A DNA stretch of 51,189 nucleotides, taken from Candidatus Fermentithermobacillaceae bacterium. Its GTDB lineage: Bacteria > Bacillota > Sulfobacillia > Fermentithermobacillales > Fermentithermobacillaceae. Below the pieces are notes generated by a model, which worked only from the letters and a program-made list of their open reading frames with translations, was not told the DNA's origin and ran no database searches. The position numbers and the translations under genes were made by a program. This document shows, one piece after another, positions 19,715 through 49,765 of the stretch. How positions within the stretch are numbered: position 1 is the first letter of the stretch; every line of letters starts with the position of its first letter. The stretch covers positions 1 through 51,189 of the forward strand of contig DULO01000049.1 in NCBI GenBank assembly GCA_012840345.1, written 5' to 3'.

Positions 19715-20866
19715 TTAATACACGTCCAGACGAACATTCTTGCCCAACTCATTGAGCCGTCTGCAGAGGTCCTCGATAATCCTGCGTTTTAAGGCCAAAT
19801 CTATTGGAAGGTCCGGGCTCTGGTGGGCCGGGTTGATAGCCCGTCCGACCATGAACCGGATATTATCGGACTCCAACAGCAAGGACGCGAGCCTGCTGGG
19901 ACCGTCAGACCTGTAAATCAGATTCCTTCTAAGAGGCGCGCCGTCTTTGAACAGGTCCGCGACCCGGGACAGGGTAAGCACGCCTTCACATACCAAGTCC
20001 ACGCCCTCCATCTGGCCTGTAGGTGGAATACCTTCCCTCATGGTGGCCATGTTGACCGTCACGGGATGACCCGTTTCCCTGGCCACAATGAGACTGGTTG
20101 TCCCGCCGCAAATCGCCTTTTTCCCCGGAGACGCCATGAACTCGGCCACGACCCTGGCGTCATCCGCCATGTCCACAGGCGGTCCGGCAAGTACCGTCAG
20201 GTACCTAGGCGCCCTAATCCTTACAGCAACTACCGTGGCGTCGTCGCCGGGCTTGCCGGCGTAGAGACGCTCGGTTGTCTCAATGAGACCGAAGGCCATC
20301 GATCTCGCGTCTTCCTCCCTGGAGGCCATCCGCTTAAGATAGTCTCCAATCCTGTTCCAGCCCCACCCCAGGTTCCAGATACCTCCGATGCCGGCATGCA
20401 GCACGCCGTCGCTTACCAGCACCAGCCAGTCGCCGTCATTGACCTGGAAGAAACTTTCTTGTACTACTCTCCCGCTGTACGTCTTCTTTTGCCTGTCTAT
20501 TGTCACGAGTTCCGATCCACGCCCCAAGAAAGCCAAAGGATTGTCGTACTCAACAAGGTGCGCCTTGTAATCAGGCCCGATAATCAATATTGAAAAGGTG
20601 CTGTAGGCTAGCCGCCGAACCTCGCAAACGGGCAGCGTACTTGCCACCGAGTCAATGACTTCCCCCAGGGGCAACCCGCCTTTTAGCATAGTAGCGGCCA
20701 TTTTCGTGGTAAGGGACGCCAGGATGTGAGCTTTCACGCCGCTGCCCAGGCCGTCAGACATGACGATTACGGTGTAACCGTCCTGGGCTATCTCGACGCA
20801 ATCCCCGCACAGTTCCTCGCCGTACTTATTCAGTTGAGACACAGCCACCTCAACTTTTAGGTTCAT
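19715..20866 (-). CDS. SpoIIE/PP2C-family serine phosphatase of the sensory hydrogenase operon
   Basis: 383 residues. Residues 1-215 are a SpoIIE-type PP2C domain: MSDGLGSG (metal-binding Asp), LVSDGVLHAG and GKPGDDATVVAVRI. The remaining 165 residues form an additional domain with CGGTTSLIVARE that I do not recognise, often seen with this phosphatase. It overlaps hydS by 17 bases, so the two are translationally linked. The likely role is to dephosphorylate a regulator when HydS senses H2 or redox state; targets are unknown. The ATG has GGGGA upstream. Confidence 0.9.
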   Translation of the reverse strand: MNLKVEVAVSQLNKYGEELCGDCVEIAQDGYTVIVMSDGLGSGVKAHILASLTTKMAATMLKGGLPLGEVIDSVASTLPVCEVRRLAYSTFSILIIGPDYKAHLVEYDNPLAFLGRGSELVTIDRQKKTYSGRVVQESFFQVNDGDWLVLVSDGVLHAGIGGIWNLGWGWNRIGDYLKRMASREEDARSMAFGLIETTERLYAGKPGDDATVVAVRIRAPRYLTVLAGPPVDMADDARVVAEFMASPGKKAICGGTTSLIVARETGHPVTVNMATMREGIPPTGQMEGVDLVCEGVLTLSRVADLFKDGAPLRRNLIYRSDGPSRLASLLLESDNIRFMVGRAINPAHQSPDLPIDLALKRRIIEDLCRRLNELGKNVRLDVY

Positions 20867-22595
20867 TGGTCCCCGGCTTCCCTTCCCTCACAACCTTCAT
20901 CAAACCCGTAAGGGACAACTTCGTCTCTGCCGTTGTCTCTCCGAGGAGGCCCGCGATCTTCTGGGCAACGGCCATCTGCTTCTCGATAACCTGCTGTGCC
21001 CTGGCCACCGCCTCCGCCACAACGCGGAATTGCCTTTCTTCCTCGGCGCGCTTGGAGGTAACGTCCTCAAGCAAGGCCACCAAGAGCTGCTGTGCGGTCA
21101 GATACATGACTTGTTGCTTTATGATGCGGTCTCCGATAGTGTTCTCCCCCGAAACTGACCCGCGGGTCTTGGCCGCTTCATGGAACATCGTCGCGTCCAT
21201 GAAGAGCTCAACCGGCTGACCAATGCACGTCTTTCGGGGAACGCCCAAAAACTGCTCAGCGGCCTGGTTGACTTCTATGATGGTACCGCCTCTAGTGGCA
21301 ACGATGACGCCGTTAGGACTTGCCTCCACCACAACGTTTGCCATGGACTCCGCTCTCTGGCGCATGTAAGGGATGCACATCTCCGGGTCCGCCATCCCGT
21401 TGTACACGGCTATCGCCTTTTCCCGGCAAGAGCTGTAGCCGCACGCTCCGCAGTTAAGCTCATCCTCGGGACTGAACTTGCCGGTCCGCTCCAGTATCTC
21501 GGCCAGCTCTTCCTCTGACGGCTGCCGCATCTCTACCTTGCGGTTCTCGTAGCTCCGGCATAGTTCCTCGAGAGGAAGCATGGACTCGTAGTCCGGAGGC
21601 TCCTGATCCCCCTCTCGGAGGCGGGCGGACTCAACGTACGCGATGAGTTTTGCCCTGCGCCCAAACAGGTCATTTTCGCTCAGGGAAAAGGGTCCGGATA
21701 TGCAGCCGCCCGGACACGCCAAAAGCTCTACAAGGACAGGCGGGTAGTCCTCGGCTATGAAGTGGTTGATCATCTCAATGCAGTTCGCGACTCCCGACGC
21801 TGCCACAGTCTCGCGGCGAAGGATCCCGTCCTTTCCCGCGGTCTTAAGGAGCCCTCCATCGGCGGCGAACAGGCGCGCAAGTCCCGGGCTCGGCCCGTCG
21901 AACTTCCCGGGCGGAAGAGCCGCGGCGTCGATACCCTCGTCCTTGAGCCATTTCATCAGTTCTTGAAATGTAAGCGCCACATCCACCGCGCCCGCTGAAT
22001 CCGGCCTGGCGATCTCCTCTTTCTTGGCGACGCAAGGGCCGATGAACACCACTTTGATCCCCGGGTACGTCCGCTTCAGGTACTTGCCGTGAGCGATGGC
22101 CGGAGAGACAAAGGGAGCCAGATACGCGATGGCGTCAGGATAATACTTCTCGATCAGGCTCACCACAGACGGACACGCGCTGGATATTATGGGCCTGTCT
22201 GAGGTGTTCAGCATCTTCTGGTGTGCCCTCGCCACCATTTCGGCTCCCAGGGCAGTCTCTTGGACGACTTGCGCTCCCAGTTTTCTTAAAGCCGAAACGA
22301 TCCGGAGAGGATTATCAAGCGCAAGCGAAGCGGCGAACGAAGGGGCGAGGCTTATGGCGACTCTCTCGCCGTTCTTGAGCATCTTCTTAACAAGATGCGT
22401 CTCTTCCTTCACGCGCTTGGCGCCTTGAGGACACTCGCGAAGACAAGTCCCATCATAGATGCAAGCATCTTGGACAACGGACGCATAGAGTTCATGAGCC
22501 AAACGACCGCGCACAACTCGAATCGCCTTCACAGGACAAGCCCGGACACACTTATAGCAGTCCCTGCACTTGGTCCTCTCCGTCTCGATGATCAT
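20850..22595 (-). CDS. hydS: Sensory [FeFe]-hydrogenase (group C, HydS-like) with PAS domain
   Basis: 581 residues. Order: two 4Fe-4S clusters (CRDCYKCVRAC and CIYDGTCLREC, residues 10-55), an H-cluster domain (about 75-320), a further FeS domain (CGACGYSSC, 382-390), PAS (about 420-520) and a C-terminal helix. H-cluster motifs are SSACPSV (140-144), GPCVAKKEE (186-194) and ACPGGC (293-298). The proton-relay Cys of TSCCP is Ala140, and the usual Met before PC is Gly. Both changes are typical of slow sensory hydrogenases rather than catalytic ones. It starts 2 bases after the ferredoxin stop. Confidence 0.93.
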   Translation of the reverse strand: MIIETERTKCRDCYKCVRACPVKAIRVVRGRLAHELYASVVQDACIYDGTCLRECPQGAKRVKEETHLVKKMLKNGERVAISLAPSFAASLALDNPLRIVSALRKLGAQVVQETALGAEMVARAHQKMLNTSDRPIISSACPSVVSLIEKYYPDAIAYLAPFVSPAIAHGKYLKRTYPGIKVVFIGPCVAKKEEIARPDSAGAVDVALTFQELMKWLKDEGIDAAALPPGKFDGPSPGLARLFAADGGLLKTAGKDGILRRETVAASGVANCIEMINHFIAEDYPPVLVELLACPGGCISGPFSLSENDLFGRRAKLIAYVESARLREGDQEPPDYESMLPLEELCRSYENRKVEMRQPSEEELAEILERTGKFSPEDELNCGACGYSSCREKAIAVYNGMADPEMCIPYMRQRAESMANVVVEASPNGVIVATRGGTIIEVNQAAEQFLGVPRKTCIGQPVELFMDATMFHEAAKTRGSVSGENTIGDRIIKQQVMYLTAQQLLVALLEDVTSKRAEEERQFRVVAEAVARAQQVIEKQMAVAQKIAGLLGETTAETKLSLTGLMKVVREGKPGTNEPKS

Positions 22596-27335: not shown

Positions 27336-28499
27336 CTATATCTCATCCGGAGAACCGAAGTCAGAGTCGAAACTGTCCATACCCAGCCCGTCAGACCCTA
27401 CTGCCGCCGAGACCATGTGCTTTTCCGGAAGCTTTGTGGTCGAGTCTTCCTCGATGGTGCCAAGGATCTCCTCGAGAAGGTCGTCCATGGTGGCCAGACC
27501 CACCGGACGGTCGCCCTCAAGGACTATGGCAAAGTGGACCCTGGCTTTCCGCATCCTCGACAGGAGGTCCAACACAGTCTCATTGCGCGACGCAAAGAAC
27601 GGCGGACGCATTATGTCGGCGACGGTCCCGCAGGCTCTTTCCGACCCGCCTTCTCCCCCGGCTTCGCCGCTCCCAATGGACCTGCCGCCCTGCTCCGAGC
27701 GCAAAGCCCTCATTACGTCTTTGGCGTAGACAACGCCCAGAACCTTGTCGCCGTCGGGGGACACCACCGGAATCCTGCTGAACCGGTGCTTGCCGAAACC
27801 GGCCAGGACCTCTGACAGCCTTGTCCTGGGACTGAGGGTAACCGCGTCTTTGAGCGGGGTCATCACATCGGCTACGCGAGTATCAGACGAGTCAAGCACG
27901 CCAACGATAACCTCGGAGTCCTCTTTGTTCACTCCGCCCTCGTCCCCCGCCAAGTCCAAAGCGAGGCGTACGGCGCTATCGGAACCGGCGGCCATTGCCT
28001 CCTGTTTGGGAGCCAAAGCCTTCGCAACAAGAGACGGAAGCCTCGACAGAACGACTGAGGCGGGTGTGAGCCACCTGACTATCGCCGCGAGCGGGACGGC
28101 CACAATCAGTGCCGTCTCGGTCGGGTTTTCGGCCGCGTAGTTCTTGGGAACAAGTTCAGAAAACATAAACACGACGGCGGTAGTGATAAGAGATACCGTC
28201 GCCAGACCGCTCGCGCTGGTTATTCCGTAGAGGCTCGCGATGGACGCCGACATTACCGATGCCAACACAGTAAACACATTGGTGCCTATGAGAAGCGCGG
28301 AGAGCGTGGTCTCCCTGTCTTCCGCCAAAGCAGCAAGTACGCTGGCTTTTTCATCACCGTTCGCCCGGAGCCCCAGCACCGCCCACTTGTCCATACCAAG
28401 GAAAGCGGTCTCGGAGCCCGAGAAAAAACCGATGGCAAGAAATGAGAGGACAAGCAGAACCGCTCTCACGCCAAGACTAAGTAACGGTACGTCCTCCAT
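27336..28499 (-). CDS. CNNM/CorC-family transporter, copy 2 (DUF21-CBS)
   Basis: 387 residues: a DUF21 membrane domain with three to four spans (SGSETAFLGMDKWAV, ELVPKNYAAENP) and two CBS domains (VADVMTPLKDAV, GVVYAKDVMRAL, PVGLATMDDLLEEI). Family members export or control Mg2+ or other divalent cations. No CorC_HlyC C-terminal domain is seen, only a short acidic tail. Its ATG follows the TAG of the upstream paralogue without any gap, so the two are translated in tandem and may form a heteromer. Confidence 0.9.
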   Translation of the reverse strand: MEDVPLLSLGVRAVLLVLSFLAIGFFSGSETAFLGMDKWAVLGLRANGDEKASVLAALAEDRETTLSALLIGTNVFTVLASVMSASIASLYGITSASGLATVSLITTAVVFMFSELVPKNYAAENPTETALIVAVPLAAIVRWLTPASVVLSRLPSLVAKALAPKQEAMAAGSDSAVRLALDLAGDEGGVNKEDSEVIVGVLDSSDTRVADVMTPLKDAVTLSPRTRLSEVLAGFGKHRFSRIPVVSPDGDKVLGVVYAKDVMRALRSEQGGRSIGSGEAGGEGGSERACGTVADIMRPPFFASRNETVLDLLSRMRKARVHFAIVLEGDRPVGLATMDDLLEEILGTIEEDSTTKLPEKHMVSAAVGSDGLGMDSFDSDFGSPDEI

Positions 28500-29813
28500 C
28501 TATTCAGTTACCTCTCCCTCTGGCTTCTCCAGCTTCTCTATGAGGACTTTTCTGATTCTGGGGCCCTTTACTTCTTTGACCAGTATCCTGACAGGCGGGT
28601 CGTCCAACATCACCGAATCTCCGGGAGACGGCACCCTATCCAGACACTTCATCACGACGCCCGCGATAGTGTCCATGTCTTCAGAGTCGATCTCGATGCC
28701 CGTGTAGTCCTCAAGGTCGATCAAACTCATTCTCCCGGGCACTTCCCAAGCGTGGTCAGACAACACGATCGGGTCCGATTCCCTGATGTCGTATTCGTCA
28801 CGTATCTCGCCGACGATTTCCTCAACCAGGTCTTCCAGCGTGACCAGGCCCGATACGCCGTCGTACTCGTCCACCACTATGCTCATGTGGATGCCGCCCT
28901 GCTTCATTTCCTGCAGAAGGCTCCTCACGTTCTTGGTCTCCGGGACGAAATACGGCGGTACGGCGAACTCCTTGGCCGCCCTTTGCTCGAGGACTTGTTG
29001 CCAATTATCAGATCCGGACTCGCCGGCGTACGCCATCAAGTCCTTGATGTTCACGATGCCGCTGATGTTGTCCCTCGTATCCACGAACACCGGAATCCGG
29101 GACAGTCCGAACCGGAGCATCAGGTTCAGCGCTTCCAAGGCGCTCCGATCCTCCTGCAGAGCGATCATGTCGGGGCGTGGGACCATCACTTCGGTTACCA
29201 CAACATCCCGGCTGTCGATGACGCCGTGGATCATCTCCTTCTCATCGTTGCGGATGGCCCCCGACGTCTCCCCGTAGTCTACGGCGGCGATGAGCCTGGC
29301 TTCGTTGAGTTCCTCCGCCCTGCTCTTTATGCTTGGAAGAGCCCAAGCGAACGCGGAAGCCAACTTCTCCGCGACAAAAGCGAAAGGCCTCATGACGAAC
29401 CCGATGGCGGACAGCACAGGAGACATCGTCACAAGCAATGATTCGGGATTGGCTGTACCGACGAGTTTGGGCGTTATCTCGCCGAATATGACGAGCGCAA
29501 CCGTGCCTCCTATGGTCGTGATTACTTCCACGACGTTTCTAGGCAGGGTTAGATGGGCAAACGCGATAGCTGCCGCTAGAGAGGCAAACATGATATTAAC
29601 CAGGGTGTTTCCAAGAAGAAGACTGGAAAGCACCGGTCTTGGATTCTCCTTGAGTTTGAGAGCTCTACTGAGGCCCTTGTGGTTTGCGAAAGCGGTCTTT
29701 AGCTTGATAAAGTCCGATGAAAACAGAACGCTCTCAGAACAGGAGAAAGTGGCGGAAAGAAAGAGACAAACAAGTGCTGCTATTACAGCCGTACTACCCC
29801 CGGGGTCGTCCAC
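28500..29813 (-). CDS. CNNM/CorC-family transporter, copy 1 (DUF21-CBS-CorC_HlyC)
   Basis: 437 residues: DUF21 membrane domain (SATFSCSESVLFSSD, IFGEITPKLVGTANP), two CBS domains (VTEVMVPRPDMIAL, DEYDGVSGLVTLEDLVEEIVGE split here for length) and a C-terminal CorC_HlyC domain. It should lie in the inner membrane and affect Mg2+/Co2+ flux. The GTG start is preceded by GGAAGGTGATGG. It has a sigma-A promoter and a leader hairpin. It is the first gene of a two-gene operon. Confidence 0.92.
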   Translation of the reverse strand: MDDPGGSTAVIAALVCLFLSATFSCSESVLFSSDFIKLKTAFANHKGLSRALKLKENPRPVLSSLLLGNTLVNIMFASLAAAIAFAHLTLPRNVVEVITTIGGTVALVIFGEITPKLVGTANPESLLVTMSPVLSAIGFVMRPFAFVAEKLASAFAWALPSIKSRAEELNEARLIAAVDYGETSGAIRNDEKEMIHGVIDSRDVVVTEVMVPRPDMIALQEDRSALEALNLMLRFGLSRIPVFVDTRDNISGIVNIKDLMAYAGESGSDNWQQVLEQRAAKEFAVPPYFVPETKNVRSLLQEMKQGGIHMSIVVDEYDGVSGLVTLEDLVEEIVGEIRDEYDIRESDPIVLSDHAWEVPGRMSLIDLEDYTGIEIDSEDMDTIAGVVMKCLDRVPSPGDSVMLDDPPVRILVKEVKGPRIRKVLIEKLEKPEGEVTE

Positions 29814-30412: not shown

Positions 30413-30677
30413 CCTTGCTACGCAAGAGCGTCATACGGACGGAGGCATACCAGAGTCCTCCTCCAGGGCCCTACTGTATTGTGGGGCACTCCCTCCTGGT
30501 CCGGTCGTTCGCGTCCAAGCGAGGCTTGTGCTGAAGGTCGGATCCATCTGAGTCCGGTCCTGACAAGAGTACAGGTTCCGGTCAGAGCCTGACTCACAAT
30601 ATCCGGCCGCGCATGGCCGCCGTCTGCTTTGCCATGCCTAGCTGCGCTAAATCACAACGAATAAGGAGGGGGTTAGT

Positions 30678-32261
30678 TTGATCATGCGCAGAAACAAGCT
30701 GTCGTTGGTCCTTCTCGCGGTAGCAATGGTGCTTGTCCTGGCGGTGCCCGGCTGCTCGCCCCAAAAAGAGCCGGAACCTGAAGGCACTCCCCTGTCACTG
30801 GTCATCGACTGCGAGGCCAACCGCAAGGATGAAGCCGCAGCGGTGGCCGCTCAACTCCGCGACATCGGGATCCAAGCCGAAGTTCGCATTTGGGAATGGA
30901 GCGCCATGAAGGCGGAGTTCATGGCAGGAAACCGGCAGATGTACATGACAGATTGGGGAAGCGCCTACTTTGACCCGTTTGACCTGGTAATACCCAAGCT
31001 TCGGACGGGAGACAGGGGCAACTACTCCTTCTACTCCAATCCTGAGTTCGACAGTGTACTCGACCAGGCGACCACGGCGACAGACGATGACACCCGGAAA
31101 GACCTCTACTACCGGGCTCAGGAGATCCTTTACGAGGATGTCCCGTGGGTCTTTGGCTACTATCTCAAGGAGACCGCAGCCGCGTCATCCAAGGTCGGCA
31201 ACTGGGAAGTGGCGATGGATTCCCGGATCAACCTGCACGACGTCACTTTGGACGGCAGCGATACCATCACCATCGGGATGGGGACCGACAGAATCATCAC
31301 CCTGGACCCGGGCAACTACAGAGATAGAGACACCGAGACCGTCATCCGGAACATATTCGACGCCCTCTTCACCAGAACTTGGGACGGAGAGGTCGTACTC
31401 GAGATCGCGGAGTCTTGGGAGACTCCGGATCCGCAAACATACGTGGTTAAGATACGGGACGGCGTGAAGTTCCATAACGGTCAGATTCTCACCGTCGATG
31501 ACGTGGTATTCACCTTTGAGCGCGTTCTCGCTGAGAACGGCATAGGCGGAATGACCTCGCCCAGGAAGGGGCTCTTGGGCCCTCTTACGTCCGTCGAGAA
31601 GGTGGATGAGAAAACAGTCAAGTTCAACCTGGAGACGCCCTTCCCCGTCTTCTTGCAGGCCCTTTGCCACTTCCAGATCGTGCCCAAGGCATATATAGAG
31701 GAAGTCGGCGACGAGGGATTCGCCGCCAAGCCCATAGGGACGGGTCCGTACAAGCTGGTTGAGGCCAAACTCGACGAGCAGGTTGTGCTGGAGAGGTTCG
31801 ACGACTACTATGGCGGCTCTCCGGACATCCCGCCCATCGGTCCCGCGAGCATCAAGAGAGCCATCTTCCGGATGATGCCCGACCCCGCCACCCGGGTGGC
31901 CTCGCTAAAGGCGGGCGAAATCCAGATAGCCGACAAGCTCCCGCCCGATATGGCCAAGAGCTTGCAGGGGGACGCCGCCATTCAAGTTAAGTCGGTGCCC
32001 GGAACACGCGTCTACGCCATCGAGCTCTGCTTGACCAAGCCGCCGTTCGACGATGTCCGTGTGCGGAAGGCACTAAACTACGCGATCGACTGGGACGCGA
32101 TCTTGAACTCTATCTATGAAGGCCACGGAGAGAGGCTCGCCACAGCGTTCCTGCCCAGTGGCTTCGGGTTCAACCCGGACTTGAAACCTTACGAGTACAA
32201 CCCGGAAAAGGCAGTCGAACTGCTGCGAGAAGCCGGAATACAGGCAGAGTTGACCAAGTAA
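30678..32261 (+). CDS. Circularly permuted peptide ABC transporter substrate-binding lipoprotein (SBP_bac_5)
   Basis: 527 residues with a lipoprotein signal (Cys26 in AVPGC). Residues 38-191 match the normal C-terminal part of DppA-type proteins: NRKDEAAAVAAQLRDIGI, WEWSAMK, FYSNPEFDSVLDQA, YEDVPWVFGYYLKE and the terminal DSRINLHDV. Residues 195-527 match the normal N-terminal part: TITIGMGTDR, ITLDPGNYRD, RDGVKFHNGQ, GTGPYKLVEA, DDVRVRKALNYAID and KAVELLREAG, where the protein ends. The frame is uninterrupted across the join, and all conserved blocks are present once. TTG 30678 has AAGGAGGGGG upstream. It should bind peptides outside the membrane for the dpp-type permease encoded next. Confidence 0.9.
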   Translation: MIMRRNKLSLVLLAVAMVLVLAVPGCSPQKEPEPEGTPLSLVIDCEANRKDEAAAVAAQLRDIGIQAEVRIWEWSAMKAEFMAGNRQMYMTDWGSAYFDPFDLVIPKLRTGDRGNYSFYSNPEFDSVLDQATTATDDDTRKDLYYRAQEILYEDVPWVFGYYLKETAAASSKVGNWEVAMDSRINLHDVTLDGSDTITIGMGTDRIITLDPGNYRDRDTETVIRNIFDALFTRTWDGEVVLEIAESWETPDPQTYVVKIRDGVKFHNGQILTVDDVVFTFERVLAENGIGGMTSPRKGLLGPLTSVEKVDEKTVKFNLETPFPVFLQALCHFQIVPKAYIEEVGDEGFAAKPIGTGPYKLVEAKLDEQVVLERFDDYYGGSPDIPPIGPASIKRAIFRMMPDPATRVASLKAGEIQIADKLPPDMAKSLQGDAAIQVKSVPGTRVYAIELCLTKPPFDDVRVRKALNYAIDWDAILNSIYEGHGERLATAFLPSGFGFNPDLKPYEYNPEKAVELLREAGIQAELTK

Positions 32262-32329: not shown

Positions 32330-32367
32330 GTGGCGATATCCCTTGTCGGTACTAGCGAAGGAGATTG

Positions 32368-33396
32368 GTGAGTTTGCGCGGGATCAAGGTTTTGGAGAGA
32401 GCGCTTGCCGCGCTTCCCATAATGCTTGGCGTGTGCGTGGTGGTTTTCCTCTTCATGAGGCTAATCCCCGGGGATCCGGTGGACATCATGCTCGGGGAAG
32501 CCTCGAACGTGACACAAGAGGAGATCGACACGCTTAGAGCCCAGTTTGACCTGGACCAGCCTATCCATGTTCAACTGGGAAGCTACCTGTCTAGGGTGGT
32601 GCGCGGAGACCTGGGATATTCGATTACCCGGTCGGCCAACGTTTCGAGCCTGATTGCGGAGGCCATGCCCGCGACGATCGAGCTGGCGCTGGCGTCAATC
32701 GTGTTCGCCCTGATCGTAGCCGTTCCGGTTGGGATCATCTCGGCCGTTAAGCATAACTCGATAGCGGACAGGGCAAGCATGGCGGGCGCGTTCGTGGGGA
32801 TCTCCATGCCGGCGTTCTGGCTCGGCATCGTTCTCATCATGGTCTTCGCCGTGCAGCTCAAGTGGCTGCCTACCTCCGGTCGGGCGCCATACGGATTGGC
32901 CCCTGACCACGTTACAGGGCTCTACGTCCTAGATTCCATAATAACCGGGAACGTCCCGGCGCTACTGACCAGCATAAAGCATCTGATCCTCCCCGCCGTG
33001 GCGTTGGGCGCGGCTCCGGCCGCAATCATCACCCGGGTGGTCAGGTCAAGCATGCTTGAGGTATTGCGCCGGGACTATGTGACCTTCGCGCGGGCGAAAG
33101 GCGTCCGGGAGTTCGCGGTCATAATCCGGCACGCGTTCCGGAACGCCCTGATACCCACGGTGACCATAACTGGCCTGGAAGTCGGTAGCCTCCTGGGAGG
33201 CAACATGATCGTCGAGACTATCTTCGGCTGGCCGGGCATGGGCCGGCTGGTGGTGAACGGCATCTTCAACAGGGACTATTCCTTGGTGCAGGGGGCTGTC
33301 ATGGTTTACGCGCTCACCTTCGTCTTGGTGAACCTGATATCGGACATCCTCTACACCTGGCTGAACCCCAAGATAGGGGTCGGTGAGACCTCATGA
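32368..33396 (+). CDS. dppB: Peptide ABC transporter permease, DppB type
   Basis: 342 residues, six membrane spans. The family start (LERALAALPIMLGVCVVVFL), FMRLIPGDPVD, the extracytoplasmic LxxQFDLDQPIHVQ and GDLGYS segment, and the EAA loop (RAKGVREFAVIIRHAFRNAL) are present. It forms half of the membrane channel with DppC. AAGGAG (32358-32363) precedes both GTG 32368 and TTG 32374; the choice is uncertain. Its stop overlaps the dppC start (ATGA). Confidence 0.93.
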   Translation: MSLRGIKVLERALAALPIMLGVCVVVFLFMRLIPGDPVDIMLGEASNVTQEEIDTLRAQFDLDQPIHVQLGSYLSRVVRGDLGYSITRSANVSSLIAEAMPATIELALASIVFALIVAVPVGIISAVKHNSIADRASMAGAFVGISMPAFWLGIVLIMVFAVQLKWLPTSGRAPYGLAPDHVTGLYVLDSIITGNVPALLTSIKHLILPAVALGAAPAAIITRVVRSSMLEVLRRDYVTFARAKGVREFAVIIRHAFRNALIPTVTITGLEVGSLLGGNMIVETIFGWPGMGRLVVNGIFNRDYSLVQGAVMVYALTFVLVNLISDILYTWLNPKIGVGETS

Positions 33397-34280
33397 GAAG
33401 ACGCCTTCTCGCCCTGCGCCTTAAGCTGTGGCGGCAAAACGCCCGGAACCTGTACCGCCGGCTCAGCAGGAACAAGCCGGCAATGGCGGGTTTCATCTTG
33501 GTTCTCGTGTTCGTGGCGGCGGCGATACTGGCTCCGGTGATAACGCGCCATCCTCCCGACAGGCAGAACCTGGCCGACCGTTTTTCTCCGCCGTCGCTGA
33601 AAGGCAAGTACCTGTTGGGGGCCGATCATCTGGGAAGAGATGTGTTCTCGAGGATCATCTACGGCGCGCGTGTATCCATCCTGGTCGGGGTTATTACAGT
33701 GACGATCTCAATGCTCGTCGGAGGGACTCTGGGCATCCTGGCGGGATACTACGGCGGCGTTCTGGACGCTGCCTTGTCGAGGTTCAGCGAAATCCTGCTG
33801 GCCTTCCCGTACTTGATCTTCGCCATAGGCGCGATGGCGATGATGGGGCCGGGATTCTGGAACCTGATTTGGGCTTTGTGTTTCAAGGGATGGGTCGAGT
33901 TTTTCCGGCTGGCCAGGGCCGGAGTGATGGCTGAAAAGACCAGGGAATACGTGGACGCCGCCCGCGTTCTGGGACGTTCCGACGCCGCCATCATGCTCAG
34001 CGAGATACTGCCGAACATGATAAACCCCCTCATAGTAGTAGGCACTTTGAGGATGGGCACCATGATGGTCATGGAAGCGTCCCTGAGCTTCCTGGGAATC
34101 GGGATTCCTCCGAGAATACCTGCCTGGGGTTCAATGATTCAGGACGGGTACCGGTTCATCCTGAACGCGTGGTGGCTCTCCGCCCTTCCCGGGCTCTTCC
34201 TGGTGACCCTCGTCTTGTCGGTGAACATTTTCGGAGAAGCCTTGCGGGAGGCTCTGAACCCTGACTTAAAGACGTTCTAA
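33393..34280 (+). CDS. dppC: Peptide ABC transporter permease, DppC type
   Basis: 295 residues, six spans: N-terminal cytoplasmic segment and first span (NKPAMAGFILVLVFVAAAIL), the GADHLGRDVFSRIIYGAR motif typical of DppC/OppC, and the EAA loop (ARVLGRSDAAIMLSEILPN). It pairs with DppB. Its ATG lies in a 4-base overlap with dppB, so the two are translationally coupled. Confidence 0.95.
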   Translation: MRRRLLALRLKLWRQNARNLYRRLSRNKPAMAGFILVLVFVAAAILAPVITRHPPDRQNLADRFSPPSLKGKYLLGADHLGRDVFSRIIYGARVSILVGVITVTISMLVGGTLGILAGYYGGVLDAALSRFSEILLAFPYLIFAIGAMAMMGPGFWNLIWALCFKGWVEFFRLARAGVMAEKTREYVDAARVLGRSDAAIMLSEILPNMINPLIVVGTLRMGTMMVMEASLSFLGIGIPPRIPAWGSMIQDGYRFILNAWWLSALPGLFLVTLVLSVNIFGEALREALNPDLKTF

Positions 34281-34307
34281 TTTGAAGGCGCTGTGGAGGT
34301 GAAGCGT

Positions 34308-35363
34308 ATGAGCCTCTTGAAACCGAGAGAGGTGTTGAGGATAACCGGCCTTAGGGTCCACTATCCCACTGACAAAGGTATTGTCAGGGCCGTACGGGGA
34401 GTTGACCTGACGGTCCATGAAGGCGAAATAGTCGGGCTGGTCGGCGAATCAGGTTGCGGCAAGAGCGCCACCCTTCTGGCAACAATGCGGCTCCTTCCCT
34501 ATCCGGGGAGGATAGCCGGAGGCCGGGTAATCCTAAACGGCCAGGACATCCTGTCCCTGAGCGACGCGGATATGAGGTCGCTGCGGGGTTCGGTCATGTC
34601 CATGGTGTTCCAAGACCCCATGTCCACCCTGAACCCCGCGCACAAGATAGGCGCCCAGATCAAAGAAGCCCTAGCGGTTCACGGGAAGTGGAATTACAGA
34701 GACCGTAAGTCCGGCCGGGAAGCCCTGGCGGCGCTTTTGGCGGAAGTGGGAATCCCCTCGCCCGAGACGGTGATCGACCAGTACCCTCACCAGCTGAGCG
34801 GAGGAATGCAACAGCGGGTCATGATAGCCATCGCTTTGGCGTGCAGGCCGGCCTTGATTCTCGCTGACGAACCCACGACGGCTCTTGACGTCACTATCGA
34901 GGCGCAGATCCTGGACCTCCTAAGGAAGATCAATAAGGAAAACGGGACAGCCATCGTGCTGGTGACACACAACCTGGCCGTAGCCTCCCAGTTTTGTCAC
35001 AGGATCGCCGTGATGTACGCCGGCCAAATAGTGGAGGAAGGCCCCGTCAGGGAGGTCCTGAGCGCGCCGTTGCATCCTTACACTCAAGGGCTCTTGGAGT
35101 GCATCCCCAAGTTCGACAAGAGCATCCGGCTCAACCCCATCCCGGGACACGTGCCTGACCTGATCGGACAGAAGACGGGTTGCTCCTTCTACGGGAGATG
35201 CGAACACAAGACCAGAGGATGCCTGGATCCCAACCGGCAGGAACTGCTCCCGGTGGGAGGCGGAAGAGGCGTCCGGTGCTGGCGATGGACGTCTGTGGTC
35301 GCTCGCGAGGGCACCGGTGAAGAAGAAGAACAAGAATTGGCGGTGGACAGCGATAGAGACTAA
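34308..35363 (+). CDS. dppD: Peptide ABC transporter ATPase, DppD type
   Basis: 351 residues. Walker A GESGCGKSA, Q-loop VFQDPMSTLNP, signature LSGGMQQRV, Walker B LILADEPTTALD and H-loop VTHNL are intact. The C-terminal oligo_HPY region carries CSFYGRCEHKTRGC, the Cys motif that binds an iron-sulfur cluster in some dipeptide ATPases. GGAGGTGA lies 6-14 bases before ATG 34308. The tail has an unusual Glu-rich end that overlaps dppF by 47 bases. Confidence 0.94.
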   Translation: MSLLKPREVLRITGLRVHYPTDKGIVRAVRGVDLTVHEGEIVGLVGESGCGKSATLLATMRLLPYPGRIAGGRVILNGQDILSLSDADMRSLRGSVMSMVFQDPMSTLNPAHKIGAQIKEALAVHGKWNYRDRKSGREALAALLAEVGIPSPETVIDQYPHQLSGGMQQRVMIAIALACRPALILADEPTTALDVTIEAQILDLLRKINKENGTAIVLVTHNLAVASQFCHRIAVMYAGQIVEEGPVREVLSAPLHPYTQGLLECIPKFDKSIRLNPIPGHVPDLIGQKTGCSFYGRCEHKTRGCLDPNRQELLPVGGGRGVRCWRWTSVVAREGTGEEEEQELAVDSDRD

Positions 35364-36384
35364 GGCCATTGAAACAAGAGACAAGGAGCCCCTCTTAATC
35401 GCGGAGGGCATAAAGAAATACTTCACCCACAAACCTAGCCTCTTGGAGCGACGGCTCGCAGGCGCACGGGTGCGGGTAACCAAGGCGGTGGACGGCGTCA
35501 GCCTGACGGTGGGACGCGGCGAGACGCTCGGTCTGGTCGGCGAGTCCGGGTGCGGGAAAACCACCCTGGGCAGGGTTATCGCGGGACTGTATAGGCCGAC
35601 CGAGGGCGCGGCCTTCTTCGACGGAGAAACGGTCAACAGCGCCGGCAACCCCACGGGGCGGGACTCCGCCTCCAAGAACGGTCCAAAACGAACTCCCAAG
35701 ATGCAGATGGTATTTCAGAACCCGTACGCGTCGCTAAACCCGCGCCACACGGTTAGGCAGATCATCGGAGTTGCCCTGGCGGCCAAGGGCGTTCCGCTTG
35801 AAGACCAGGAAGCAGAGACAGTCAGGCTCCTTGACCGTGTCGGACTGCGCGGGGACCATCTCGATCAGTATCCGAGCCAGTTCAGTGGAGGACAGCGCCA
35901 GAGGATCGCCATCGCGAGGGCTCTCGCCACGGACCCGTCTTTCATCGTGGCCGACGAACCCGTTTCGGCGCTGGACGTCTCTGTCCAGGCCCAGATCCTA
36001 AACCTGCTCGAGGACCTGCAGGCGGAGTACGGCCTTGCGTACCTCCTCATATCCCACGACCTAGCAGTGGTTCATCACGCCAGCCACAGGATAGCGGTAA
36101 TGTATCTGGGGAGAATCGCCGAGATCGGGCCTACGGAAGAGATATTCGAGAACCCGCTGCACCCGTATACCCAGGCCCTCTTATCGGCCATCCCGAGGAT
36201 AGGAGCGAGCGAATCCAGGAGGATTATCCTCAAAGGCTCGGTGGCAAACGCCGTCGACCCGCCTCCGGGATGCCGCTTCATGCCGCGCTGCCCCTTGGCG
36301 GAAAGCGTTTGCGCGGAGGTAACGCCTGAACCGTCTCAAGCTCCGGATTCGCCCGACCACCTGGTCTGGTGCCACAAACGATAG
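35317..36384 (+). CDS. dppF: Peptide ABC transporter ATPase, DppF type
   Basis: 355 residues. Walker A GESGCGKTT, Q-loop VFQNPYASLNP, signature FSGGQRQRI, Walker B FIVADEPVSALD and H-loop SHDL are intact. The C-terminal oligo_HPY region has CRFMPRCPLAESVC. It forms the ATPase heterodimer with DppD. The start is GTG 35317, inside dppD; a GAGGG lies 5 bases upstream. It closes the operon and faces leuS across 30 bases. Confidence 0.94.
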   Translation: MKKKNKNWRWTAIETKAIETRDKEPLLIAEGIKKYFTHKPSLLERRLAGARVRVTKAVDGVSLTVGRGETLGLVGESGCGKTTLGRVIAGLYRPTEGAAFFDGETVNSAGNPTGRDSASKNGPKRTPKMQMVFQNPYASLNPRHTVRQIIGVALAAKGVPLEDQEAETVRLLDRVGLRGDHLDQYPSQFSGGQRQRIAIARALATDPSFIVADEPVSALDVSVQAQILNLLEDLQAEYGLAYLLISHDLAVVHHASHRIAVMYLGRIAEIGPTEEIFENPLHPYTQALLSAIPRIGASESRRIILKGSVANAVDPPPGCRFMPRCPLAESVCAEVTPEPSQAPDSPDHLVWCHKR

Positions 36385-47254: not shown

Positions 47255-49765
47255 TCAAGATAGATACCCCATCATTGACGCGGCAATCAGCCCTGCCAAG
47301 ACCAGCAAGCACACGGCCATGACGATCAGGTCTTTGCGCGTTAGGGCGTGGGAAACCAAGTAGGTGCGGGTCGGGTACAGCCCGAATGCTCGGCCCTCCA
47401 TGGACATGGCCAAAGAATCAACCTTCTCCAAAGCCGACACCAACAACGGAAGCAATGTAAGGCGGACTTGGCGCATCAGATCTTTCAAGGACTTGCCTTG
47501 CAGGTCCACCCCCTTCACCATCTGGGCGTTTCTAACCTGCTGCAGTTCGAGTTGAAACAGCGGCGCGAACCGAAGAGCGGTTATCAGCATGAACCCGTAT
47601 CTGTACGGAAGTCCCGCTTGCATGAGAGAGAAAGCGAGCTGGTTCGGGTCCGTGGTCGACACGAACAGGTAGCTGGAACCCACAATGTTGAGAAACCTTA
47701 GGGATATCGCGATACCTCGAGTCAACCCTTCATGGAAGAACGCGAACCGCCTGCCGAAAAGCACAAACGAATAAAGGACCGGACCGTGGTGCCAAAAGAG
47801 AAGCTGCACGGCAAGGATAATCCCGCAGAACGTTAGAATAACCCTCAGTTTCCTTACGAAAAAGCCCAACCCGTAGCCTGACAGCCTGTAACAAGAAAGA
47901 AGGAGCAGGAAAAGAAGTAGGCCTCCCCGGGGCGTACCCATCAGAAGACACGCTATCGTGAACGCCAGCAAGACTACTGCCTTTACCAGGGGATTAAGGC
48001 GGTGAACCAAGGTGGCGCCTGGCAAGTAACCGATGTTGAGAGGCCCGCCCATGATGGGAGCTTCCTTCGGGGGAGCGACCTGTACGAGAGTCTCTGTCTC
48101 TGACGCAGCCGCGTTCAACACTGGTGCCCGTACTTCTTCCAAGACGGTATCCTCCGGGGCATCACACGATGAAAACTCAGATTCGTAGTCATCGGGGATG
48201 TAGTGGCTCTTGCCCAGCCTGGCCAGATCATCAAAGGCGTCGGGCACAGGTTCATTCAGGATCAGCTTACCGTCGTCAAAGAACAGAACCCTATCGCACC
48301 AGTCCCTGACCACTCGGGGCTCGTGGCAGACCATTACGGCCAATCCACCCATCTCCGCAAACCTTGAGAGACTTTCCATCACATCGGTCTGCCGAAACAG
48401 GTCCTGCCCGACGAGAGGCTCGTCCAGAAGCAACACTCTGGGCAAAGACGCCTGAGCCGAGGCAAGGGTCACACGCTTCTTCTCACCGAGGCTCAGGGAA
48501 AACGGGTTGGCGTTCGCGTAGCCGTCCAGCCCAAAATGCTCGAGGAGCGGCGTTATGTCGGCGGGTTCCGAATCATGTCCTAGGTTTCGCGCGGTCGCTG
48601 CCACTTCATCTTTAACGGTACTTTCGGAAAGCTGGTGGTTAGGGTTTTGGAAGGAGTACCCGAAAGACCTGACGCGAGAGGCGACCCTTGCTTCCGTGAT
48701 GTCCTGTCCGCCAAGGAGGATTTTCCCCGCTGACGGCTCGACCAACCCCATAATGGCGGAAAGCAGTGATGTCTTCCCGCTTCCGTTGTCTCCCATGACG
48801 GCTACTATCTCGCCTGGGTACAGATCCAAGTCCACATCGTTGAGCACGGGCTTGTCGTTGTAGGCCACTGTAAGCCCTGAGACAACGAGCAGGGGTTCTG
48901 AGGCCGAAGGGACTTGTCCACTCGTTGGAGCCTGCTCTTTCTGCGCGGATTGCCTTCGTTCGGGCAACCGGTGCGGTGCGGACTGCCGCGTCTCAAAGGG
49001 CAGTTTTGCGGAGCGCCTAGACGGTGACGATATGGACCGGTTTCTGTTTAGCACCTCTGCCGGAGGGCCATCGTCGATGATCTTGCCGGCATCCATGAAC
49101 ACAAGTCTGTCTGCGAACGGCAGGATCTTCTGGAGCCGGTGCTCGATCACGATGACGGCCATGTCGCGGCTGTTCCTAAGATCATGGATGACCGAAAGGA
49201 CCTCCGCTGTTCCCTGTGGATCGAGGAAGGCTGTAGGCTCGTCGAGGATGAAGACCGAAGGCTCCATGGCAAGAACAGAAGCGATGGCGACCCGCTGCTT
49301 TTCGCCGCCCGACAACGTGTAAACGCTCCTGTGGGCCAATTGGGAGGCGCCGACCGCTTCCAGCGCCCACTTGACCCTCCGCCCTATCTCGTCGGGAGGC
49401 AAGCTCATGTTTTCCGGCCCAAATGCTACTTCATCGATAACGCCTAAGGTACAAAGCTGGCCTTCAGGGTCTTGCTGGACTAGCCCGACCGTGCCCGATA
49501 GCGCCCCGGGAGACAACTCCATAGTGTCCCGGCCGTGAATGAGGATCCTGCCTTGCATATCTCCGGGAAAAGCGTGGGGGATGAACCCGGCAATGGCAAG
49601 GGCAAGGGTGGACTTGCCGCAGCCGCTAGGCCCGGCGATACAGACGAACTCGCCCTTCTTGACCTCTAAGGAAACACCCGACAGGACAGCGTCGCGATGC
49701 CCGGCGTACCTGTAGGTGAGGTTTTCGACCCGGACAACGGGCGCGTCAAGGATAGAGCAAGCCAA
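47255..49765 (-). CDS. ECF transporter EcfA-EcfA-EcfT fusion
   Basis: 836 residues. ATPase 1 (about 10-240): Walker A GPSGCGKST, signature LSGGEKQ, Walker B FILDEPTAFLD, HxH switch EHR. A linker of about 50 Ser/Arg-rich residues follows. ATPase 2 (290-520): Walker A GDNGSGKTS, signature LSLGEKK, Walker B LLLDEPLVGQD, HEP. The rest (about 580-836) is an EcfT with five spans and the ATPase-coupling motifs (ALRFAPLFQLELQQVRNAQ, AMSMEGRAFG). This is a full energizing module in one chain. TTG 49765 is the only start; it lies 3 bases after the stop of the S-component gene. Confidence 0.93.
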   Translation of the reverse strand: MACSILDAPVVRVENLTYRYAGHRDAVLSGVSLEVKKGEFVCIAGPSGCGKSTLALAIAGFIPHAFPGDMQGRILIHGRDTMELSPGALSGTVGLVQQDPEGQLCTLGVIDEVAFGPENMSLPPDEIGRRVKWALEAVGASQLAHRSVYTLSGGEKQRVAIASVLAMEPSVFILDEPTAFLDPQGTAEVLSVIHDLRNSRDMAVIVIEHRLQKILPFADRLVFMDAGKIIDDGPPAEVLNRNRSISSPSRRSAKLPFETRQSAPHRLPERRQSAQKEQAPTSGQVPSASEPLLVVSGLTVAYNDKPVLNDVDLDLYPGEIVAVMGDNGSGKTSLLSAIMGLVEPSAGKILLGGQDITEARVASRVRSFGYSFQNPNHQLSESTVKDEVAATARNLGHDSEPADITPLLEHFGLDGYANANPFSLSLGEKKRVTLASAQASLPRVLLLDEPLVGQDLFRQTDVMESLSRFAEMGGLAVMVCHEPRVVRDWCDRVLFFDDGKLILNEPVPDAFDDLARLGKSHYIPDDYESEFSSCDAPEDTVLEEVRAPVLNAAASETETLVQVAPPKEAPIMGGPLNIGYLPGATLVHRLNPLVKAVVLLAFTIACLLMGTPRGGLLLFLLLLSCYRLSGYGLGFFVRKLRVILTFCGIILAVQLLFWHHGPVLYSFVLFGRRFAFFHEGLTRGIAISLRFLNIVGSSYLFVSTTDPNQLAFSLMQAGLPYRYGFMLITALRFAPLFQLELQQVRNAQMVKGVDLQGKSLKDLMRQVRLTLLPLLVSALEKVDSLAMSMEGRAFGLYPTRTYLVSHALTRKDLIVMAVCLLVLAGLIAASMMGYLS

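Follow-up and report, generated by a model that had tools for sequence, protein, structure and literature searches.

How can a single uninterrupted gene encode the usual parts of a Dpp/Opp-type receptor in swapped order, and is that order natural? The gene lies in the window, a stretch of 51,189 nucleotides from a Candidatus Fermentithermobacillaceae bacterium (contig DULO01000049.1), at 30678–32261 on the forward strand. It has 527 residues in one unbroken frame, running from a TTG start at 30678, preceded by a ribosome-binding site graded good, to a TAA stop at 32259–32261; an in-frame ATG at 30684 offers an alternative start. From the letters alone, the first-pass annotation had proposed a lipoprotein signal followed by the normally C-terminal segment of the receptor and only then by its N-terminal segment, with every conserved block occurring once. 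The features of the gene and its operon are collected in Table 1.

Table 1. Positions in the window of the receptor gene, its parts and the downstream importer genes.
Feature	Position	Strand	Basis
Shine-Dalgarno-like AAGGAGGGGG	30663–30672	+	Sequence; 5 nt 5' of the TTG start
Receptor signal peptide, residues 1–25	30678–30752	+	Sequence; AF2 helix at residues 2–21
Lipobox Cys26 (VPGC, residues 23–26), predicted lipid anchor	30753–30755	+	Read by eye
C block, residues 38–189, ends DSRINLHDV	30789–31244	+	phmmer to DppA 389–501; block HMM
Linker TLDG, 4 residues, old C-terminus to old N-terminus	31245–31256	+	Linker comparison across the permuted set
N block, residues 194–521, ends in helix NPEKAVELLREAG	31257–32240	+	PF00496 1–280; DppA 72–369; block HMM
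New C-terminal tail QAELTK and stop TAA	32241–32261	+	Sequence; relatives' tails similar in length and at the same place
Permease B (DppB/Opp2B type)	32365–33396	+	NCBIfam Opp2B 343.5 bits, slightly below cut-off 350
Permease C (DppC/Opp4C type)	33393–34280	+	NCBIfam Opp4C 276 bits, below cut-off
ATPase D (DppD/OppD type)	34293–35363	+	NCBIfam dipeptide ATPase 325 bits, below cut-off
ATPase F (DppF/OppF type)	35317–36384	+	NCBIfam 354 bits, below cut-off; overlaps ATPase D at its listed start

SBP_bac_5 (PF00496) is the only Pfam family recognised in the protein (299.3 bits, E 5.5e-89, gathering threshold 32.4), and it is matched in two stretches, the better of which places residues 238–523 on positions 1–280 of the 368-position profile. 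Alignment to E. coli DppA by phmmer likewise matched the halves as two blocks in swapped order, with residues 237–522 on DppA 72–369 and residues 49–158 on DppA 389–501. Separate hidden Markov models for the two blocks find one copy of each, the C block preceding the N block, and the landmarks DSRINLHDV, TITIGMGTDR and KAVELLREAG named in the first-pass annotation are all present, so that its description of the chain order holds. The protein is thus an SBP_bac_5 (cluster C) lipoprotein, by its signal peptide and a lipobox cysteine read by eye, with the normally C-terminal part placed first; the blocks of a homologue are cyclically shifted in an uninterrupted frame, as in a natural circular permutant. 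A collinear block order is usual for PF00496 without being a Pfam criterion, and we class the protein as an SBP_bac_5 variant of permuted order rather than as an ordinary member. Its best relatives of solved structure by sequence are DppA, haem/glutathione-binding protein A and YliB (GsiB), and the NCBIfam equivalog cut-offs for DppA, OppA, GsiB and NikA are all missed by far (DppA, for example, 165.5 of 1005). DppA, GsiB, GbpA, NikA and AccA share its Pfam family and predicted fold but have the normal block order.

Comparison of the two chain orders locates the cut. In normal proteins the N block ends in '...KAKELLxEAGY' and is followed by a loop of a few residues and the C block ('xLVIDT'), the chain terminating a few residues past 'DSRINLHDV'. 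Permuted proteins run from the signal peptide through 'TLSVVID' ... 'DSRINLHDV' and a linker to 'GDTIVVG'; the linker has 4 residues across the permuted set (5 in L086), and the new C-terminal end lies 3–7 residues beyond EAG-X ('EAGY' or equivalent). The cut is the lobe 2 loop between the helix 'NPEKAxxLLxEAG' and the next strand 'LSxVID', and the C block comprises the second half of lobe 2 and the return to lobe 1. Residue 522 of the window protein aligns to SapA 374, and SapA domain II spans residues 313–531 (PMC8519434), which puts the cut within lobe 2. The N- and C-termini of such receptors lie near each other in domain I, and the lobe crossings of YejA fall at about 282–287 and 540–542 (PMC10924461). 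With the cut inside lobe 2, both hinge crossings should be kept; the first-pass annotation had suggested altered hinge properties, and the path through the hinge is probably unchanged given these published domain maps. The old termini, side by side in lobe 1, would be joined by the 4-residue linker. The chain may then run unbroken through lobe 1, its two ends would together make up lobe 2, and the lipid tether would start from lobe 2 rather than lobe 1. The aligned position of the lipobox cysteine is also Cys in the same-family relatives L016, L018 and L023. Eight other permuted receptors (L024–L031) have a signal peptide without the cysteine, and tethering thus differs among them.

The swapped order was sought in related genomes, as the first-pass annotation had advised, and full-length relatives carrying it were found in 42 genomes from 13 families of one Bacillota phylum: 22 of the 154 genomes of the class, 18 further ones in a phylum sample and 2 more. 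Systematic scans of the class and the phylum sample used a profile (A1) built on twelve permuted proteins and counted contiguous full-length matches; at the fetched loci, the block models served as a direct check on the order. A scan of the genome collection gave ten full-length, unbroken relatives (L022–L031, 58–74% identity) and an eleventh (L021) with one TAG. One of the ten lies on the complete Candidatus Fermentithermobacillus carboniphilus chromosome, CP062796.1, which is among six permuted-receptor genomes that are single contigs (G006, G129, G136, G137, G337 and G512). That 42 genomes keep one and the same order excludes chance, and the swapped receptor is a real natural rearrangement, not an assembly error. 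At the thresholds used in the class and phylum scans, every matching genome had one match, permuted or normal. One genome (G352) gave an N-block match only, its gene running off the contig end, and two candidates from a whole-protein search, L032 (Armatimonadetes) and L033, had the normal order by the block models.

The phylum search also returned matches to the N block only, with 380–530 bits in frames of about 520–630 residues, and fourteen of these (L071–L084; for example from G418, G398 and G261) score highly for both blocks, which they carry in the ordinary N–C order. These close normal-order orthologues, at about 50–60% identity, belong to the same subfamily as the window protein, and nearly all of them head the same operon of receptor, permeases B and C and ATPases D and F; permease B of most of these loci is 58–63% identical to that of the window. 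Outside the phylum, a match on a Ciceribacter thiooxidans plasmid that spans the whole junction query proved to be a further normal-order relative (L119), in the same operon type of an alphaproteobacterium. Homologues of normal order align to the window protein only as two swapped blocks and not collinearly end to end. The receptor of one orthologous importer therefore occurs in two chain orders, and since the normal-order orthologues head the same operon, permutation of the receptor happened within that operon. The normal order is taken as ancestral because it is found both in the outgroup L082–L084 and in the Ciceribacter relative.

The permeases and ATPases of OppBCDF/DppBCDF type encoded with the receptor in the window are kept beside it in permuted and normal-order loci alike, and a role as the receptor of this importer is the natural reading of the operon. 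The permuted protein, which replaced the normal-order receptor of the orthologous operon, would fold to the usual two-lobed form, close on its ligand and, like an ordinary receptor, hand this over to permeases B and C, and so serve the importer encoded directly downstream. In ten relatives (L024, L026–L030, L098, L099, L101 and L102) the operon is split: their nearest ATPase F homologue is found upstream on the opposite strand and has diverged further, at about 50–60% identity. Elsewhere in the window, all on the reverse strand, lie an 836-residue reading frame with ABC_tran (two matched stretches) and CbiQ, a fused ECF-type transporter module (47255–49765); two neighbouring frames of 387 and 437 residues that resemble CorC/HlyC-type membrane proteins when their translations are read by eye (27336–29813); and an iron-only hydrogenase large-subunit domain with an extra FeS cluster domain, by Pfam (20850–22595).

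The first-pass annotation had called the protein peptide-binding, a label that the binding site puts in doubt. In DppA, Arg383 holds the peptide carboxylate and Asp436 the peptide amine (PMC12136057). The window receptor has Ala at the Asp436 position, and the 46 relatives compared (33 permuted, 13 normal) all have Ala, Ser or Gly there; the amine-anchoring residue is thus missing throughout the subfamily, which makes a plain dipeptide receptor doubtful. Neighbouring genes suggest another ligand: Peptidase_C26 is encoded beside four normal-order receptors (L075, L076, L081 and L082) and five permuted ones (L086, L088, L089, L092 and L100), gamma-glutamyltranspeptidase (GGT) beside two normal-order ones (L077 and L078), and GntR-UTRA regulators also occur among the neighbours. 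The window operon itself has no adjoining gene for Peptidase_C26, gamma-glutamyltranspeptidase or GntR-UTRA; the source genome carries a Peptidase_C26 gene elsewhere, and this family is present in 14 of 14 control genomes. From these neighbours we would guess at a gamma-glutamyl compound, a guess that may prove right or wrong about equally. An ordinary di- or oligopeptide receptor, for which the place of DppA among the best solved relatives speaks together with the DppB-, DppC-, DppD- and DppF-like permeases and ATPases (all below the NCBIfam cut-offs), keeps a tentative claim, against which stand the loss of Asp436 and the Peptidase_C26 and GGT neighbours.

Could the two blocks come from different receptors, fused rather than permuted? 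They are joined by a linker, and the trees of the two blocks disagree in detail, as such a fusion might produce, but both blocks are nearest to the same normal-order proteins (L071–L081), which score 449–518 bits with the N-block model and 135–226 bits with the C-block model, well ahead of the normal-order paralogues of the source genome (88–175 and 33–47 bits); a fusion of halves of separate origin is very improbable. We find it harder still to believe that the gene is permuted yet decayed and without receptor function. One relative, it is true, has an in-frame TAG, but pairwise dN among the permuted genes is low (0.20–0.31) against a dS of at least 1.9 or saturated, many columns of the aligned permuted receptors are invariant, and the gene is kept as one copy heading an importer operon. 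The TAG lies inside the C block of L021:5180–6916 (the same gene as L017 and L040; G013, DUSI01000008.1) and marks either a sequencing error or a decaying copy. An assembly artefact that merged two receptor genes, or tandem copies, on a single contig in a false order has a negligible chance of being true: the window contig does belong to a 136-contig assembly whose genome has several other SBP_bac_5 genes, but the order and the join recur across large independent divergence and under purifying selection in 42 genomes, of which six are single contigs.

In structure prediction, the best AF2 model reached a mean pLDDT of 86.6 and a pTM of 0.81 from a shallow alignment of 15 rows, four of which are fragments of normal-order relatives (mean pLDDT of the other four models, 66.7–83.2), and the docking of the C block on its native place, as modelled, rests on the pTM. 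The top Foldseek matches in the PDB were DppA, a sialic-acid receptor, AccA, GbpA and NikZ, at TM scores of about 0.5 over about 350 columns, as expected when a permutant is compared by a sequential aligner. Taken with the observed block order, conservation across genomes, operon and purifying selection, this confident predicted structure leads us to regard the protein, with high confidence, as an SBP_bac_5 (cluster C) receptor in naturally circularly permuted form, which would serve the ABC importer downstream.

The standard way for a permutation to arise, tandem duplication followed by fusion and by loss of the outer parts, is also a plausible origin for the window receptor, as the first-pass annotation had supposed; no tandem-fusion intermediate, meaning a reading frame with a duplicated N or C block, was found among the fetched frames. 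In a tree of the concatenated blocks (46 rows, permuted and normal), 32 permuted proteins form a clade (100/99) adjoining the normal-order L071 group, and one permuted protein (L050/P0002 of G017) is placed outside it. The AU test rejects a single clade of all permuted proteins (p 0.0025 for the concatenated blocks, 0.004 for the N block, 0.019 for the C block and 0.017 for the permeases). The permuted proteins and the L071 group together form one clade in the best concatenated tree, with weak support (75/21), and this grouping, chosen after the trees had been seen, is compatible with the N block (p 0.405) and the permeases (p 0.088). Rejection of a single permuted clade requires two changes, either one permutation and one reversion or two permutations, and we think it rather likely that the block order did switch more than once, through a permutation and a return of L071–L074 to the normal order (by a second duplication and truncation) or through the permutation having arisen twice at one site. 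That linker length and ends are shared ('SLTEGDTLVVG' in L050, 'ALTEGDTIVVG' in L047) would favour one permutation, with L050 being a single sequence. At the very cut, the L075 group keeps the canonical EAGYPDGF-type loop whereas that of the L071 group is shortened to EAGV-x-DL, which would fit a return to the normal order.

Natural circular permutation in general is well known. For ABC importer receptors, the literature search found one natural permutant, TpMglB-2, and no permuted SBP_bac_5 protein, among papers that included few from subscription journals or preprints; the first-pass annotation likewise knew of no description of a permuted Dpp/Opp-type receptor. TpMglB-2 (Tp0684), the glucose receptor of Treponema pallidum, was classed as 'Type Ic / Cluster Bc', has relatives mainly in treponemes and Gram-positive bacteria, and keeps ligand binding and closure (PMC4990184). 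Both it and the window receptor are lipoproteins (the latter by prediction), but TpMglB-2 is a cluster B sugar receptor and the window protein, as an SBP_bac_5 member of cluster C, falls outside cluster B (type I). The permutation of TpMglB-2 moves about three N-lobe strands and needs a fourth hinge crossing (PMC4990184), whereas the cut inside lobe 2 of the window receptor should require no extra crossing. The permuted part of TpMglB-2 has little similarity to a normal sequence, in contrast to the window receptor, both blocks of which align to close normal-order orthologues.

Collinear profile methods score a permutant as two matches and so hide the permutation, and more such receptors may have been overlooked. 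The permutation point found here evolved naturally and could be used in receptor-based biosensors. If the block order did switch repeatedly, this operon family would provide a rare natural series on chain order in two-lobed receptors.
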